Positions 25,254-34,502 of a stretch of 34,502 nucleotides of DNA are shown one piece after another. Under the pieces are notes generated by a model that was not told where the DNA came from, ran no database searches, and saw only the letters and a program-made list of their open reading frames with translations. A program made the translations under genes and the position numbers. Source of the DNA: a virus. The DNA is taken from IMG/VR virus record IMGVR_UViG_3300032282_001175, positions 1 through 34,502 of that record. One strand, written 5' to 3'. Within the stretch, counting starts at the first letter, position 1. Each line of letters starts with the position of its first letter.

Positions 25254-27509
25254 TTATTTTTTTCCTATATCTTTAATTTTTACACCAGCGGCAGGCTTTA
25301 ATGATTCTTTAGATTTTGCACCTTCTTTTACATCGCTAACTAAATTTCTAGTCATTGTTCCAATAGGAAATAATCCGCCACCTATTGCAAGATTTGCACC
25401 TTTTTCAGCAATGTTAGCGGCTTTTTCACCTAAAGCAGAAACAAAAGTATTTGATTCATTAACATAGCCGCCAGGAGGCCTTTCTTGTATGTTTCTAGCG
25501 GTATTCCCTAATGCTTTTAATTGCTGATTAACTTCAGGGCCAACAATATTCAAGATTTTAGGATCAACATTTTGCAATGCTTGATTGAACCCTTTTTGAC
25601 TAAAAGTTCCTGAACCATCATTTAAAATTCCTGATTTTGATTTTAACCAATTTACAATGCCAGCCGCCATAACTTGTCTAGCTTGTGAATCAGCACCAAG
25701 ATGATTAACCATTATGTCAATGTCTTTTTTCTTGCCACCAACTACAAATTTGTTAATAAAGTCATCAGCATAAACCTTGCCATTTACAGCCGCTTTATAA
25801 GCTTTATCATTAGTTAATAAATCAAATCTTTGTTTAGCCGCATTTCTAGCTTGGTCAGCTAAAATTTTTAGTTCTTTTGATTCTCCAACTAAAGGCAAAT
25901 CTTCTAATGCTTCACGAACTTTTCCTAAAGCAAATTCAGCGTTGCCATCTCCAGCCCTATCTGCCTTACGCATTTCTGATGCCAAATTAGTTCTCATGGC
26001 TTCAAATTGCTCAAAAGTCATTGGCGTTCCATCTTTAAAAGAATCTAATTGGCTTTTAATTGAAGCTGGTAAAAATTCTGTTTTAAGATTTTTCTTTAAA
26101 GAAGCATAAGCATTATCTGCAAATTTGACAGCATCAATAGGTATTTCTCCGCCTGCGGCTTTTCTTAAAGCTGAATATTTGGCATCAATATTAGCTTTTC
26201 TAGCAATATCTAAATCAAGGTAAGCATCAATTAAAGATTGACCATTTTCTACAACATTGGTGCCATATACATCAGGCGAAGCATTTTTTTTAATTTCATC
26301 AAGGTTTTCTACTAATTGTGCATTTTGCTCGTTATATCTTTGAGCTAATTGTGGATTTTTTGCACGACTATTCATTTCATCCGAAAACAATTTTGGGTCT
26401 CTTGAAACTTGTCCTTTAGTAAGCTGTATTGGAATTGGCAAAGTATCTGCATCCATTACACGCTCTAATGCTGGAACACTTATTTCATTTGGTTTTAATT
26501 TATTTAATTCTTGTGCAACTTGTGGAGAAGCTCTAGTAATAGCTTCTTTTAACAATGTTTCATTGGCTGTTTGAGCCGCACCTACTCCTGCCATAGTAGG
26601 TTTAATTTCATCCATCTTAGGAAATGCTTGGTTTAATTTGTCAGAAAGAACAGCTTTAGCTTTTGTTCCGCTTTCAGCTACTTTTTCAACAACTTTTCCT
26701 GCTCCTGGAATTGCAACAAGTTGTTCAGGATCGTAAATAATGCCTTTTACAGTTTCCCCTGCAAATTTAGCAGGGTTATCGTAAATGCCTTTAGCAATAT
26801 CTGAAATAGTATTAACTGGTTCTGTGACTAATTTAGTAACACCCTCAACAAATCCTTTGCCTTTTTTGATTAACTTTTCTTCAGCGGCTTTTTTATCAGC
26901 TTCTGTAAACCCTGGAATTCCTAAACTTGAAGCTGTATATTCAATAGCAGGAGCCAATAAACTTTTTTCTTTCCAATCTTCAGCAGAAATTTCTGACAAA
27001 GGCTTTGCAAAGTCTTTAATCATTCTTTTGCTTATATCGCCCATTTGTTTAATGGCTGGCTTTTCTGTAGCTTTTGGCTCATTTCCAACAGGGGCAGATT
27101 CCCATAAATCAGCAAAATTAGAACTGGTTGATTGTGTATTTTGTTGTTCTACATTTTTTGGCTTAAAGTCTTGCATAGCCTCTACATGAACTGGGTCTTT
27201 TTTCCCATAAGGTCTATGCAAACCATATTGATTTAAAAATGTATCAGGAATATCAGCAGGAATATCTGCGGCTTCACCTTTTTCATGCAAACTTGTTCCA
27301 GGTTTAGCAACTAAATTTGGATTGGAACCACGCATATTCCATAATTTAATTTGCTTTTCAGGCGTTCTATATCCACTATTTATTTCAATAGGTTTGCCAG
27401 TTTTTTCTTTCCAAGCATCATTTGCTTGCTGTAAACGAGTAGCAAAATCAGCTTTTAAGCCTGAATAAGGATCATTTCCTGATTCCCAAAGGTCTGCAAA
27501 ATTAGCCAT
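25254..27509 (-). CDS. Ejection protein with N-terminal M15 peptidase domain
   Basis: A 751-residue protein in the position of P22 gp16. Residues about 13-112 form a zinc D,D-carboxypeptidase-like (M15/VanY) domain: SGYRTPEKQ (45-53), SLHEKGEAAD with zinc ligands H75 and D82, and VHVE with H108 and catalytic-type E110. The remainder (about 140-751) is helical and Lys/Glu-rich, like a virion ejection protein. The motif NFADLWES occurs at residues 3-10 and again at 131-138, flanking the peptidase. It would be injected with DNA and open peptidoglycan for entry. It overlaps the preceding gene by one base. Confidence 0.88.
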   Translation of the reverse strand: MANFADLWESGNDPYSGLKADFATRLQQANDAWKEKTGKPIEINSGYRTPEKQIKLWNMRGSNPNLVAKPGTSLHEKGEAADIPADIPDTFLNQYGLHRPYGKKDPVHVEAMQDFKPKNVEQQNTQSTSSNFADLWESAPVGNEPKATEKPAIKQMGDISKRMIKDFAKPLSEISAEDWKEKSLLAPAIEYTASSLGIPGFTEADKKAAEEKLIKKGKGFVEGVTKLVTEPVNTISDIAKGIYDNPAKFAGETVKGIIYDPEQLVAIPGAGKVVEKVAESGTKAKAVLSDKLNQAFPKMDEIKPTMAGVGAAQTANETLLKEAITRASPQVAQELNKLKPNEISVPALERVMDADTLPIPIQLTKGQVSRDPKLFSDEMNSRAKNPQLAQRYNEQNAQLVENLDEIKKNASPDVYGTNVVENGQSLIDAYLDLDIARKANIDAKYSALRKAAGGEIPIDAVKFADNAYASLKKNLKTEFLPASIKSQLDSFKDGTPMTFEQFEAMRTNLASEMRKADRAGDGNAEFALGKVREALEDLPLVGESKELKILADQARNAAKQRFDLLTNDKAYKAAVNGKVYADDFINKFVVGGKKKDIDIMVNHLGADSQARQVMAAGIVNWLKSKSGILNDGSGTFSQKGFNQALQNVDPKILNIVGPEVNQQLKALGNTARNIQERPPGGYVNESNTFVSALGEKAANIAEKGANLAIGGGLFPIGTMTRNLVSDVKEGAKSKESLKPAAGVKIKDIGKK

Positions 27510-29682: not shown

Positions 29683-29919
29683 TTATACATTGTAATATGG
29701 CACTTTGTAATTTTTGCCATCAACATATACATTCATAAAACCAGCAGGATTAGCTGGTAAAGTGGCACTTCCAGCAGTTGCTGTTGTTGCAGAAGTTTGA
29801 TTTAACAAGCCTAAAAAAAATTGCACCCATGCCCTAGAAGGTCTTTTAGAGTTTTCATCTAATAAATCAGTTTGTGGCAATGGATTTATTGTATTTCCAG
29901 CGTAAATTTGATTAGCCAT
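29683..29919 (-). CDS. Small virion protein between connector and ejection genes
   Basis: A 78-residue protein, MANQIYAGNTINPLPQTDLL onward, with a RPSRAWVQFFLGLLNQT segment and a C-terminus ending DGKNYKVPYYNV. Proteins of this pattern, with a conserved RxWVxFFxxL and a GxxKVPYY.. ending, are common in podovirus virion regions, but I do not know a function. Its ATG overlaps the stop of the gp10-like gene (ATGGC with a shared base). A tail-hub or needle accessory role is possible. Confidence 0.75.
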   Translation of the reverse strand: MANQIYAGNTINPLPQTDLLDENSKRPSRAWVQFFLGLLNQTSATTATAGSATLPANPAGFMNVYVDGKNYKVPYYNV

Positions 29920-31904
29920 TAATTATCTCCTGAACTTGCTTTAAGGTTTGCTGAAACAATTACTGCTTTAACAGGGTCACTAACTACAACTTCAAATATG
30001 CGATCTCTAGCCATACCCAATCTACGCCAAATAGCACGATGCTTATATTTGCCTGTTTGACCAATGTCTTGCCAATATTCTTTAGACCAAGTAGAGCCGC
30101 CATCATTAGACCAGCGTAACATAGCCTTCGGATTAGAAAATATATCTGTTGTGTAGATTTGTCCAGCATCAGCCAAAACATCAATTTGCTGATATTCAAT
30201 AACCAAAGAGCCCAAAGCAGAAATGTAATAAGGACTGCCTAAATAGATGTTTCTATCTCTTGAAAAGCCTTTTGTGCCAACGCCAGGTTGAAATTGTAGT
30301 TGTAATTCATCAAAATACTGTCTTTGTAAATCGGTGACAAGGTGCGGTGCTCTACGCAATCTGCGTACTTGTTCGTAATTATCTGTGTAATTGCTTTGGT
30401 CTAATTGATAAAGGTTGCCATTTTCCCAATCTCCTACAACAACATAGTTTTGGAAAACTGCGGCACAATTACTGCGATGGCGATGGTATTTATTGGCTGA
30501 ATCTGTCCATAACCATTTATGCCATAACTGGGTCGTAAAGTCGAAAGCCCAAGTAATATCAATAGAAGGAAAAGAAACTACATAAACTTCATGTCCTTCT
30601 AATTGATAAGTATAGGCAATAGCATCTTCTGTATATTGATCTAAAAGGCTGTTTTCTACAGCATGAGTAGAAATGCGCTGTGGAATGTAACCATTCATTA
30701 ATACAACTTGGTTTTGACCACGAATGTTTTGAGAAACATAAGCAAAAGAATTACCAACTCTAGCTACCGAAAACGGCGCAATAATACCTTGTTGTGTAGA
30801 TGAACCTGGAATACGCTGATAAGCAACTGGGAAGGTTCCTTGGTCATTCCAAACTTCTGATGATTTTTCACCCAAAAGGAATAATTGCCCATTATTGGCA
30901 ATTAAAGATACCAAATTGTCAGGTGATGTAAATTTACTTGCATAGCTTAAACCCTGTGTAATTGGGCTTAAAAGGTCTGAAACTGCAAATTGTTGTGTAT
31001 CAGGTCTTGTGTAAATAAAGTAATTATCATTAACATCAACTACGCCACCACCAGTAAAAGCACCATCAGTAGAAGGTAAAATACTAAATTGATGTGCATT
31101 TATGGTTGTTGAGCTTACAGTTTGAGCTACAGGATTTAAAATATAAGTTCCTACGCCACCTGAACCAGTTCCTAAAGCTGTAATAATTGTTCCTACCGCT
31201 ATACCAGTTCCAATAATGGTGGTGCCAACTTGTATTGTTCCTTTAGATATTGCTGAAACAGTTAAAGTTGTAACTCCTGAAGCTGTAGCAATAGAGCCTG
31301 TAAAGACAGCGCAAGGAGGATCAGCATATAAAGGTGCAGGAGTGGTATTTTGAAAAATATTAACAGTCCATAAAAAACCTGAACCGCTAGTAATAATGGT
31401 TCCTTGAGCTATTCCAACGCCATATATAGCAGAGCCAACAGATATTGTGCCAGCTTGAATAGAACTAACATTTAATGTATTGCCTACAATATAACCAATA
31501 AAATTGGTGGTATCAGGAGCATCAATTAACCATGAATAACGATTTTCTCCATCAACAATGTAAACATAAATACCATTATCAACAATGCTTACTGGCCCAT
31601 TGCCACTTTTTAATTGCCCAATAATTGATACTTCAAAGTTATAAGCAACAGAATAAACATAAGAACCGCAAACGGCTATAAGTTGTGATCCGCCTGAAGA
31701 TATGGTTCTTAAACCTCTAACTTGCTGTAAATTAGGAAAAGTAGTTAGCTTTGTTAATCCTGGAGTAGGGTAAAGGGCAATAACACCTCTTTCTCCTTGT
31801 GCTTTTGCAGGATCAATTTCAGGCCGCCAATTAATACATTCTTGGTCATCCTGATAGATAGAAGGGGCTGTGTAGGATGCTCCTACAAATCCAAAATCAG
31901 CCAT
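29919..31904 (-). CDS. Tail/DNA stabilization protein, P22 gp10-like, with inserted modules
   Basis: A 661-residue protein; P22 gp10 is 472. The N-terminus GFVGASYTAPSIYQDDQEC, INWRPE and TPGLTKL match the gp10-type family, and the C-terminal half carries further beta-propeller-like strands (VVVGDWENGNLYQLD). At about residues 138-269 two extra beta-rich modules are inserted, recognisable by GTGIAVGTIITA and GGVGTY; the second closely resembles modules in the gp4-like protein. P22 gp10 plugs the portal and joins the tail. It starts at the stop of the gp4-like gene (overlap of one base). Confidence 0.85.
   Translation of the reverse strand: MADFGFVGASYTAPSIYQDDQECINWRPEIDPAKAQGERGVIALYPTPGLTKLTTFPNLQQVRGLRTISSGGSQLIAVCGSYVYSVAYNFEVSIIGQLKSGNGPVSIVDNGIYVYIVDGENRYSWLIDAPDTTNFIGYIVGNTLNVSSIQAGTISVGSAIYGVGIAQGTIITSGSGFLWTVNIFQNTTPAPLYADPPCAVFTGSIATASGVTTLTVSAISKGTIQVGTTIIGTGIAVGTIITALGTGSGGVGTYILNPVAQTVSSTTINAHQFSILPSTDGAFTGGGVVDVNDNYFIYTRPDTQQFAVSDLLSPITQGLSYASKFTSPDNLVSLIANNGQLFLLGEKSSEVWNDQGTFPVAYQRIPGSSTQQGIIAPFSVARVGNSFAYVSQNIRGQNQVVLMNGYIPQRISTHAVENSLLDQYTEDAIAYTYQLEGHEVYVVSFPSIDITWAFDFTTQLWHKWLWTDSANKYHRHRSNCAAVFQNYVVVGDWENGNLYQLDQSNYTDNYEQVRRLRRAPHLVTDLQRQYFDELQLQFQPGVGTKGFSRDRNIYLGSPYYISALGSLVIEYQQIDVLADAGQIYTTDIFSNPKAMLRWSNDGGSTWSKEYWQDIGQTGKYKHRAIWRRLGMARDRIFEVVVSDPVKAVIVSANLKASSGDN
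31098..31493 (-). repeat. Two beta-modules within the gp10-like gene
   Basis: Codons for residues about 138-198 and 199-269. The second module carries AVFTGSI, TTLTVSAIS, GTGIAVGTIITA and GGVGTY, which align with the second module of the gp4-like gene. They are not part of the core family, to my knowledge. Limits are approximate. Confidence 0.75.
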
Positions 31905-33103
31905 TATCCAGTAAATCCGCCGTTAAGAATCCATCCAGCATCTCTAGCTTTGCCTGAAAGCATTGCATCAGGATAACTAGCAACTTGAACAGGCCTCATG
32001 TTTGTGCGCTTTAAAGTTGCCTTTGCTTGTGAAGCAAAAGCATTAATCATTTGTATTTGCGTACCATTGATTTTTCCATACATAGGCATTAGTCGTTCAG
32101 CCAAACACCATCTGAGTGCCATTTCATAACCTTGTGGAAATGATAAATTTTCATACAAATCATCATAAGTGCTATAAATAGTTGTGCTGAAAAGGTGCAT
32201 TTCGCCTTGTGAAGGATTAGGCCAAACTGTTAAATTTCCTGATTCTGCACCTGGGTTGTAATACAAAGCTTTAGGCCAAGGGCCATTAAGCGTTTTTAAA
32301 CCAATTTGATTGTAGTTTTCAAGAGCCAATATTCCTACTTGATAATCTAATCCACCATTTAAAACAGGCTGACCATTACTTGTAGTGTTTACCCTTACAA
32401 AAGCAGAATCAATACCTAATGGTTTTTGATAGTAAAGGGTAATAGGAATAGGCGTTACTGTGGCTGTCATAGCCCTGCTACCAAGGCTATAACTACTACT
32501 TAGTGTATATGTACCAACTCCACCTGATGCGCTTATAACGGCTGTAATAGTCGTTCCTGCCGATATTCCAGTTCCAGTAACAGTTGCACCAGCACCTATA
32601 TAACCAGCAGATATAGCGGTAACAGTTAATGTTGTTCCTGAAATAGAGCCTGTAAATACGGCTGAAGGAGTGGTGGCATCAACATTTAATCTGTATGTAC
32701 CAGCTTCGTTTACATTTCCACCAGCACCAGTTAAAAACTCAACAATCTTTGTGCCTACGCCATTAATGCCAATTCCACTAAGGGTTTGACCTAATGCTAC
32801 CGCACCCGATGTTACGCCTTGTACAGTAAGAACTTTTCCTGAAATAGTTCCAGTTATTGCCGCACCAATGTAATTTGCTGTGCTTGGATCAGGGCCAATA
32901 GTGTATTGAGTTTGTCCTGGAATGACAGGAAATACAATTTCCGTCACGTTGTAAACCATCATGCCTTCATTTGACCATTGATCAATGATGCCATTTAACA
33001 TTTCTAAAGCATCTTGTGCGGCATCAGGCGTTGGCACTTCACCAGCTTCTAATGCACCAATGTCTTTTAAAGCTCTGCTAATAATATCTATGGGCTTAGT
33101 CAT
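31904..33103 (-). CDS. Tail accessory factor, P22 gp4-like, with inserted modules
   Basis: A 399-residue protein; P22 gp4 is 166. Residues 1-75 match the gp4 family (DIISRALKDIGALEAGE, LEMLNGIIDQWSNEGMMVY, QYTIGP) and the C-terminal part (KPLGIDSAFVR, GYEMALRWCLAERL) resumes it. Between them, at about 79-216, lie two beta-rich modules with GTGISAGTTITA and GGVGTYTL motifs. The insert falls in the loop between the QYTIGP strand and the RPLxI strand of the family. gp4 binds the portal and begins the tail. It is followed by the gp10-like gene. Confidence 0.87.
   Translation of the reverse strand: MTKPIDIISRALKDIGALEAGEVPTPDAAQDALEMLNGIIDQWSNEGMMVYNVTEIVFPVIPGQTQYTIGPDPSTANYIGAAITGTISGKVLTVQGVTSGAVALGQTLSGIGINGVGTKIVEFLTGAGGNVNEAGTYRLNVDATTPSAVFTGSISGTTLTVTAISAGYIGAGATVTGTGISAGTTITAVISASGGVGTYTLSSSYSLGSRAMTATVTPIPITLYYQKPLGIDSAFVRVNTTSNGQPVLNGGLDYQVGILALENYNQIGLKTLNGPWPKALYYNPGAESGNLTVWPNPSQGEMHLFSTTIYSTYDDLYENLSFPQGYEMALRWCLAERLMPMYGKINGTQIQMINAFASQAKATLKRTNMRPVQVASYPDAMLSGKARDAGWILNGGFTG
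32456..32869 (-). repeat. Two beta-modules within the gp4-like gene
   Basis: Codons for residues about 79-147 and 148-216, each with a TGTISG.VLTV or TGSISGTTLTV start, a GTGI-type centre and a GTY end. They sit in the middle of the gp4-type domain. The second module is very similar to the module at residues 199-269 of the gp10-like protein. Limits are approximate. Confidence 0.75.
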
Positions 33104-33112
33104 GATGCTCCA

Positions 33113-33421
33113 TTAAATTTTTACTGTAAATGTAGGTAAAACCCAAGGCTTTTTTAATGCTACTGGTTCTATTGCCATTAATTGATTTTTTAAATTATCC
33201 TCAATAATGCACTTTTCATCAATTATTGATTCAGCTTTTATCCAAGCAATTACATCTTTTTCAGTTGTTTCGTTTTGCAGGAAATGGCTTTTATCTTTAA
33301 AAGTCCAATTTCCTTCCGTAATTACTTTATTTTCATCTTTGGTAGCAGTAACTTGATACTTTACAGAAGTAATTTTTTCACCTTCTGCATAAATATCAAG
33401 CACTTTCCAAGTAAAAATCAT
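33113..33421 (-). CDS. Small protein coupled to the glycine-rich fibre
   Basis: A 102-residue protein, MIFTWKVLDIYAEGEKITSV onward. Its ATG overlaps the fibre stop (ATGA). The N-terminal ~50 residues are beta-rich, and the middle has WIKAESIIDE, a pattern that recurs in small proteins next to fibre genes in T4-like cyanophages (from memory). Fibre chaperones and caps are commonly encoded right after the fibre, so that is the likely role. It has one cysteine and no membrane segment. Confidence 0.7.
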   Translation of the reverse strand: MIFTWKVLDIYAEGEKITSVKYQVTATKDENKVITEGNWTFKDKSHFLQNETTEKDVIAWIKAESIIDEKCIIEDNLKNQLMAIEPVALKKPWVLPTFTVKI

Positions 33422-34502
33422 GCTGTGTAGCTTCCTGAAGATGTAAATTTAACGACTGTATTGGAGCCGCTAGTAGTTACAGTAGGCAATCCAGTTACAA
33501 TTCCTGAATAATTGGCTGTAGGCATAGAAAGAATAACAACGCCTGAACCTCCATTACCACCTGGAACGCTTGGTCCACTAGCTGTACCACCGCCACCGCC
33601 ACCAGTATTAATAGTTCCATTTGCTCCTGTAGAACCAGCCGCACCGCCACCACCAACACCACCAGTACCATTAGAAGAACCACCATATCCGCCACCACCG
33701 CCAGCGTAATAAACAGAAGTGCCAGTTAAAGTATCTACTAGACCAGCACCGCCTGAACCACCAGTAGAATAAGCTCCGCTATTACCTGAACCTCCAGCGC
33801 CTCCGCCACCGCCAGCAGAGTCTGCGCCTGAACCTGAAGGTGTACTACCGCCACCATTATTGCCTTGTCCAGGAATACCAGTACCAGCAGAATAACCATA
33901 GAATCCTGTGTTTGTACCGCCTCCTGAACCACCATTACCAGCATTACCAGCTTGGCTACCACCTGAACCACCGCCTGTTGCTGTAGCAATAGCAGTAATA
34001 TAGCTATTAGAGCCATTAGTGCCATAACCTAATTGACCAGCACCGCCAGCACCAATAACCACAGTAAATGGAGTAGAAGGAAGGGCAGTAAATGTGCCAG
34101 TAAGCATACCGCCAGCACCGCCTCCGCCTCCGCCTACATCTCCGCCTGATCCGCCACCAGCTACAACTAAATAACTAATAGTGTATTGACCTTGGGGAAC
34201 CATAGAAAACTTATACCAAGCGGAAACTGCTGGCAAATAACCTTCATATAATCCACCGCCATCGGTGTTGTAACGAATTAAACCAGCCGCAGGAGTTGGT
34301 CTTTGTATAGTATTGCCTACTGGTAGACCTAATGCGCCTGTACCTGATAGCGTTAATTGACCAGTAATAGTTACATTATTAAATGTAATATTTCCTGACA
34401 AATCAGAATATAAAAGAGTTCCATCTGCCGCAGGAACAGTTAAATTGTATGTTCCAGCAGTATTCGTACCATTTAAAGTAGTCGAGCCGCCTGAAACAGA
34501 AA
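33418..34502 (-). CDS. Glycine-rich tail fibre, C-terminal part (starts at 142 across the junction)
   Basis: The frame stays open to the end of the window and continues at positions 1-142, giving 367 residues. After a beta-rich N-terminal third (residues to about 115 of the joined protein, with PQGQYTISYLVVAGGG), it has a long polyglycine-rich domain (GGGGAGG, GGNGGSGV) and ends SGSNTVVKFTSSGSYTA. The last ~45 residues closely match the end of the 639-residue adhesin, so the two are paralogues. Polyglycine adhesins bind host receptors in other phages. Any start inside this segment (for example the TTG at 34401) is an artefact of the linear cut. Confidence 0.87.
   Translation of the reverse strand, partial: SVSGGSTTLNGTNTAGTYNLTVPAADGTLLYSDLSGNITFNNVTITGQLTLSGTGALGLPVGNTIQRPTPAAGLIRYNTDGGGLYEGYLPAVSAWYKFSMVPQGQYTISYLVVAGGGSGGDVGGGGGGAGGMLTGTFTALPSTPFTVVIGAGGAGQLGYGTNGSNSYITAIATATGGGSGGSQAGNAGNGGSGGGTNTGFYGYSAGTGIPGQGNNGGGSTPSGSGADSAGGGGGAGGSGNSGAYSTGGSGGAGLVDTLTGTSVYYAGGGGGYGGSSNGTGGVGGGGAAGSTGANGTINTGGGGGGTASGPSVPGGNGGSGVVILSMPTANYSGIVTGLPTVTTSGSNTVVKFTSSGSYTA
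34380..34502. repeat. Terminal direct repeat, right copy
   Basis: Identical to bases 1-123. It marks the overlap of a circular assembly, and it lies inside the glycine-rich fibre gene. Confidence 0.93.

Follow-up and report, generated by a model that had tools for sequence, protein, structure and literature searches.

Tandem beta-modules in the adjacent gp4-like and gp10-like neck proteins of a P22-like virus

Two neck proteins and their four modules

The window (the whole 34,502-base stretch of a virus record that we analyzed) encodes on its minus strand a gp4-like head-tail adaptor of 399 amino acids (31904-33103), followed directly by a gp10-like packaged-DNA stabilization or head-closure (Hc3) protein of 661 amino acids (29919-31904). 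The last base of the first gene is the first base of the second (31904). The gp10-like protein has the profile and the fold of an Hc3 protein: it matches phrog_578 (E = 3.7e-90), and its core is a beta-propeller like that of P22 gp10, with two inserted modules. A profile search of the PDB with gp10 led to the Pam1 needle head (7eeq), Pan3 (9vyg), Sf6 gp8 (7sg7), and P22 gp10 (8tvr). The gp4-like protein matches an adaptor profile (phrog_12985, E = 1.4e-40) and lies just before gp10, as an adaptor should; its match to the Pfam family SU10_adaptor (PF24175, E = 8e-7) is weak. The structure predictions agree with these assignments. Foldseek placed P22 gp10 (8eap, E = 1e-14) and Sf6 gp8 at the top for the AlphaFold2 model of the gp10-like protein, and phage adaptors (9k09, 8jov, and 7z47; A4, GP4, SU10, N4, and others) for that of the gp4-like protein, to which P22 gp4 was a weaker match.

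Elsewhere in the window, a 751-amino-acid protein with a VanY/M15 peptidase-like N-terminus (25254-27509) occupies the ejection-protein position, which suggests an injected peptidoglycan-cleaving protein. (Also, two separate long glycine-rich proteins, encoded at 547-2466 and 33418-34401, flank the structural region and have a GGGGGAGG-type domain in common, which is possibly a second family of virion modules in common use. The protein at 33418-34401 matches PF21722, Gly_rich_2.)

A sequence-only reading of this locus had proposed that the same beta-rich module is present twice in each of the two neck proteins, and our comparisons bear this out. Each protein carries two tandem modules of about 65-71 residues, all on the minus strand. 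In the gp4-like protein, they are gp4_A (32663-32875, amino acids 77-147) and gp4_B (32456-32662, amino acids 148-216); in the gp10-like protein, gp10_A (31311-31505, amino acids 134-198) and gp10_B (31098-31310, amino acids 199-269). All six pairwise protein alignments scored above every one of 1000 shuffles (Z from 3.9 for gp10_A/gp4_A to 14.3 for gp10_B/gp4_B). At the DNA level, where an alignment had also been advised, gp10_B/gp4_B was the sole strong pair (score of 84, where shuffles averaged 21). Searched with a profile of the module, gp10 scored 68 bits and gp4 75 bits, whereas the highest-scoring of 2000 shuffles reached about 9-11 bits; the profile matched no further copy among all of the window's ORFs of at least 60 amino acids. 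The four copies are alike overall, but the literal motifs AVFTGSI and GGVGTY, which had been described as shared, are confined to the B copies; the two A copies have diverged further. The composition of the module is rich in glycine, threonine, and serine, so similar patterns in its most distant relatives could have arisen by convergence.

AlphaFold2 predicts six strands in each of the four modules, always in the same order and with good local confidence. The predicted strands span residues 80-144 and 148-214 of gp4 and residues 133-195 and 199-271 of gp10. The pLDDT of these blocks was 64-91 for gp4_A, 90-97 for gp4_B, and 73-94 for the gp10 modules.

We found no Pfam model for the module, and no Ig-type or carbohydrate-binding match, using the consensus, gp4_B, and gp10_B as queries. 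As a result, annotation pipelines miss the module or call its carriers "tail fibre". (A Pfam multicopper oxidase match to gp4 residues 106-217 was rejected: gp4_B alone scores 15 bits, which is below the cut-off, and the consensus module has no match.) Two PHROG profiles, phrog_21413 and phrog_38233, happen to include the module, and positions ~398-465 of phrog_21413 are matched by all of the modules that were tested, although gp10_A matches weakly (E = 5e-4). Searches of PDB sequences with the module, by phmmer and by profile, gave only chance matches. A tblastn search of the phage collection with individual modules gave no match, an outcome that low-complexity masking of the modules probably explains.

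Insertion sites, copy number, and exchange

The gp4 modules lie between QYTIGP and KPLGI, and the gp10 modules lie between YSWLID and QFSILPSTDGAF. Both cores are themselves beta-rich, so one might suppose that these segments are integral core strands that are present in all homologues, and that an ordinary fold has been misread. To this we can compare 62 viral loci with gp4 and 68 with gp10. Among these loci, gp4 has either one module (~325 amino acids, as in L054/L060) or two (~400 amino acids, as in the window), while gp10 has none (481-511 amino acids; L010/L011/L041-L057), two (620-670 amino acids), or two plus a nested insert (~710-840 amino acids). Gp4-like proteins with no module are encoded by Rhodoferax phage P26218 (234 amino acids), EBPR podovirus 1 (236 amino acids), and Pseudomonas phage PAE2 (238 amino acids); they align across the gap, reading YTIG(P/S)-G...-RP straight through the insertion site. 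In Xanthomonas phage PBR31, the same slot of gp4 holds a divergent module. Because each protein has relatives without the segments, in which the flanking sequences still align, the segments are true insertions within the cores, as had been proposed; and as the module is also found in unrelated folds, we reject the idea of misread core strands as extremely improbable. The modules also explain most of the length by which both proteins exceed their P22 counterparts, given zero-module lengths of 234-238 amino acids for gp4-like and 475-490 for gp10-like proteins.

The single module of the one-module gp4 proteins and gp4_A have FLTGAGGNVNE.GTY in common, and gp4_A is probably its orthologue; gp4_B is the extra copy of the two-module lineage. 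The two proteins need not carry modules together: in L010-L014, a two-module gp4 adjoins a zero-module gp10, so the loads vary independently and the partners are not obligate. This natural series of zero, one, or two copies at fixed sites means that a decorating function could be tested directly by deletion.

Two other observations concern these relatives. First, the nested insert is a second, different repeat (GTGYAVNDTVTVLGG...; TAGTGYAVNDTVTVLGG...GTGLTL..TFGTGSGGTGSY) within the second module of gp10 (examples are L100:6001-8484, L036:7637-9757, and L112:6001-8391, with proteins of 710-840 amino acids). Second, L010, L011, and L014 have a gp4 that is 83% identical to the window's, yet their module-free gp10 allele is only 57% identical, which suggests that recombination has occurred where the gp4 and gp10 genes meet.

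That neighboring genes share the module had been taken to suggest exchange between them, for instance by recent gene conversion or duplication. The likeness of gp4_B and gp10_B, which resemble each other more than any other two of the window's modules, might be read in this way (70% DNA identity over 130 nucleotides). Of the gp4 trees, that of gp4_B gives the best fit to the gp10 module alignments, although it is still rejected. In a tree of 236 modules, however, gp4_A and gp4_B each form an exclusive clade, and the nearest relative in another genome is nearly always from the same slot: modules cluster by slot and not by genome. Also, the similarity of gp4_B and gp10_B within genomes, which is the best pair, does not significantly exceed that in permuted genomes (p = 0.056; p = 0.15-0.98 for the other pairs), and modules of unrelated phages are just as alike (mean identity of 0.48, versus 0.31-0.57 among the window's own four). 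Thus, recent exchange between the gp4 and gp10 genes is not supported, and we consider gene conversion to be quite improbable. Judging by their sequences, the window's copies seem to be long-established members of a much larger pool of modules.

A different kind of exchange is suggested by AU topology tests (IQ-TREE) of the module alignments against the core-gene trees, which were also run in a 33-genome version. The first modules agree with the trees of their own cores (gp4_A, p = 0.25; gp10_A, p = 0.07). The second modules reject them (gp4_B, p = 5e-5; gp10_B, p = 0.005). Gp4_A is a fair control for gp4_B because it is adjacent, of the same kind, and of the same length. So, the second-module slots appear to have been swapped by recombination between related phages, independently of the genes that they sit in. 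This would place a slot that is swapped independently of its own gene within core pieces of the P22-type neck. The modules are under purifying selection, by a factor of about two to three less stringent than that on the cores (dN/dS of 0.18-0.32 for modules and 0.09-0.11 for cores).

Other carriers and possible roles

A search of phage proteins for the module, as the sequence-only reading had advised, found it in many classes of virion protein. A profile scan of viral contigs gave at least 600 matching stretches. The carriers among the matches listed include a DUF3383 tail sheath, a neck terminator, a T4 gp8-like baseplate wedge, cement or minor head proteins, an S74 fibre, phrog_3287 virion proteins, and a collar protein, in which three copies follow in tandem. 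Fusions of the module to cement proteins of the E217 gp24/Pam3 gp6 type (PF22758; phrog_2122 in L202) also occur. A structure search of BFVD added an HK97 capsid protein, a pectate-lyase protein, a side tail fibre, and giant-virus collagen proteins. In bacterial assemblies, the consensus query found the module in prophage-like loci and in a few other proteins: a SusD-family protein and, as judged by their N-termini only, secreted or pilus-type proteins. In contrast to this breadth, the module is nearly restricted to gp4 and gp10 in 20 related phage records. Taken together, the sequence matches indicate a widespread, promiscuous, unnamed family that is inserted in permissive loops of virion proteins.

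Two loci deserve separate mention. In a sheath-bearing (DUF3383) prophage-like locus (L223:1379-5479 and L212), each of four consecutive structural genes carries the module, with two copies in the last gene of L223, so this is a stronger instance of neighboring genes with a common module than the window. In a SusD/RagB-family protein from Chitinophagales (L239:2798-4624), one module lies between two SusD domain matches.

It is reasonable to infer that the module is a surface ornament, because zero to two copies are tolerated, because purifying selection on it is weaker than on the cores, and because most of the other proteins that carry it are exposed parts of the virion. The explanation that we favor, and think fairly probable, is that a single promiscuous beta-module serves as a portable exterior decoration or cement: phages have inserted it in loops of virion proteins, and here it occupies the gp4 and gp10 slots as tandem pairs. 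The loops that accept modules would be exposed in the assembled neck. The P22 neck contains 12 copies of gp4 and 6 of gp10. With this stoichiometry, about 36 modules would form an exposed belt round the tail neck, and this belt could serve for decoration or cementing and might also adhere weakly to the host or to the medium.

A likeness to a capsid protein bears on this role. The best solved structure over the module was chain 1 of 8eci, from Arthrobacter phage Bridgette (Foldseek E = 0.03, probability of 1.00; 35% identity over 75 columns; TM of 0.47 by target). This chain has 124 residues, and gp7 of Bridgette has 126 amino acids and is encoded after the capsid gene; given its length and the gene's position, the chain is probably gp7, the probable capsid cement protein. 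In Bridgette, cement dimers reportedly surround the penton (PMC13033339). The module and gp7 have a co-linear G.GI.AGTTITAV motif. In pairwise shuffle tests against gp7, p was 0.0007 for gp4_B, 0.003 for gp10_B, and under 1/3000 for the PBR31 insert, but a composition-corrected profile HMM disagrees, in that many shuffles of gp7 outscore gp7 itself. Also, the sequence profile of the module does not recover the Bridgette protein from the PDB. We consider a relation between the module and gp7 to be probable at the level of the fold, and no more than possible as homology.

A decorating or cementing role would fit this structural relative, the cement proteins among the carriers, and the purifying selection. 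A more specific proposal is that the belt cements the neck: modules of neighboring subunits would touch each other or the capsid and stabilize the joint between portal and neck against the pressure of the internal DNA. The Bridgette match and the fusions to PF22758 cement proteins argue for this. Against it stand relatives that assemble with no module or one, and a two-module gp4 beside a zero-module gp10, which imply that the partner's modules are not obligatory. We regard neck cementing as a tentative proposal.

Alternatively, the modules might bind carbohydrates or the host, so that the neck belt would help the phage to adhere to the cell envelope or to a polysaccharide. Such a role would fit the SusD and fibre carriers (the SusD family being glycan-binding outer-membrane proteins), the collar-protein carrier, and the independent recombination of the B slots, as ligand-facing parts would show. 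It also has a precedent in lactococcal 936 phages, whose neck and tail modules bind host cells (PMC6669499). However, no carbohydrate-binding family was matched, average selection is purifying rather than diversifying, and the single SusD case is anecdotal. The observations fit cementing and adhesion alike; we regard adhesion, too, as a tentative proposal, and a portable decoration or cement remains our preferred explanation.

More speculatively, the module may define an unnamed superfamily that spans free-standing capsid cement, neck adaptors and propellers, sheaths, terminators, wedges, fibres, and some bacterial outer-surface proteins. In P22-like phages, the recombining belt of about 36 modules would then be a second exchangeable layer for adhesion or cementing, apart from the tailspikes. 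We put this forward as a possibility, and not as the likelier case.

Comparison with known systems

Promiscuous domains are a known addition to the structural proteins of phages, chiefly tail fibres and capsids. In this sense, the module is of a kind that is already known. What is new is that one unnamed family extends across many classes of virion protein, and that it is inserted in pairs in both P22-type neck proteins, where its copy number forms a clean series and one slot recombines independently. We found no paper that describes the module in a literature search whose coverage lacked most subscription journals.

The gp4-like protein has its core sequence, its order before gp10, and its adaptor fold (by Foldseek) in common with the P22 gp4 tail accessory factor and SU10-type adaptors (PF11650, PF24175, phrog_12985), but it has two modules in the loop after QYTIGP, where the classical proteins have none. 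Similarly, the gp10-like protein shares its core sequence and propeller fold with P22 gp10, Sf6 gp8, and the Pam1 needle head (phrog_578), but it contains two inserted modules that classical members of phrog_578 lack. The cement protein of Bridgette, probably gp7, stands free on the capsid, whereas the window's modules are insertions in gp4-like and gp10-like proteins.

In 936 phages, the neck passage structure bears carbohydrate-binding modules (PMC6669499). These are, as here, extra beta-rich modules of the neck, although ours has no match to the known carbohydrate-binding families. Domain shuffling of structural proteins is well established (PMC10684548). Promiscuous Ig-like domains in phage virion proteins (Fraser et al., 2006, as cited in PMC10684548) are a further parallel: our module matches no Ig-like, BIg, or FN3 family in Pfam, but like those domains, it appears to be a portable surface domain in unrelated structural proteins of phages.
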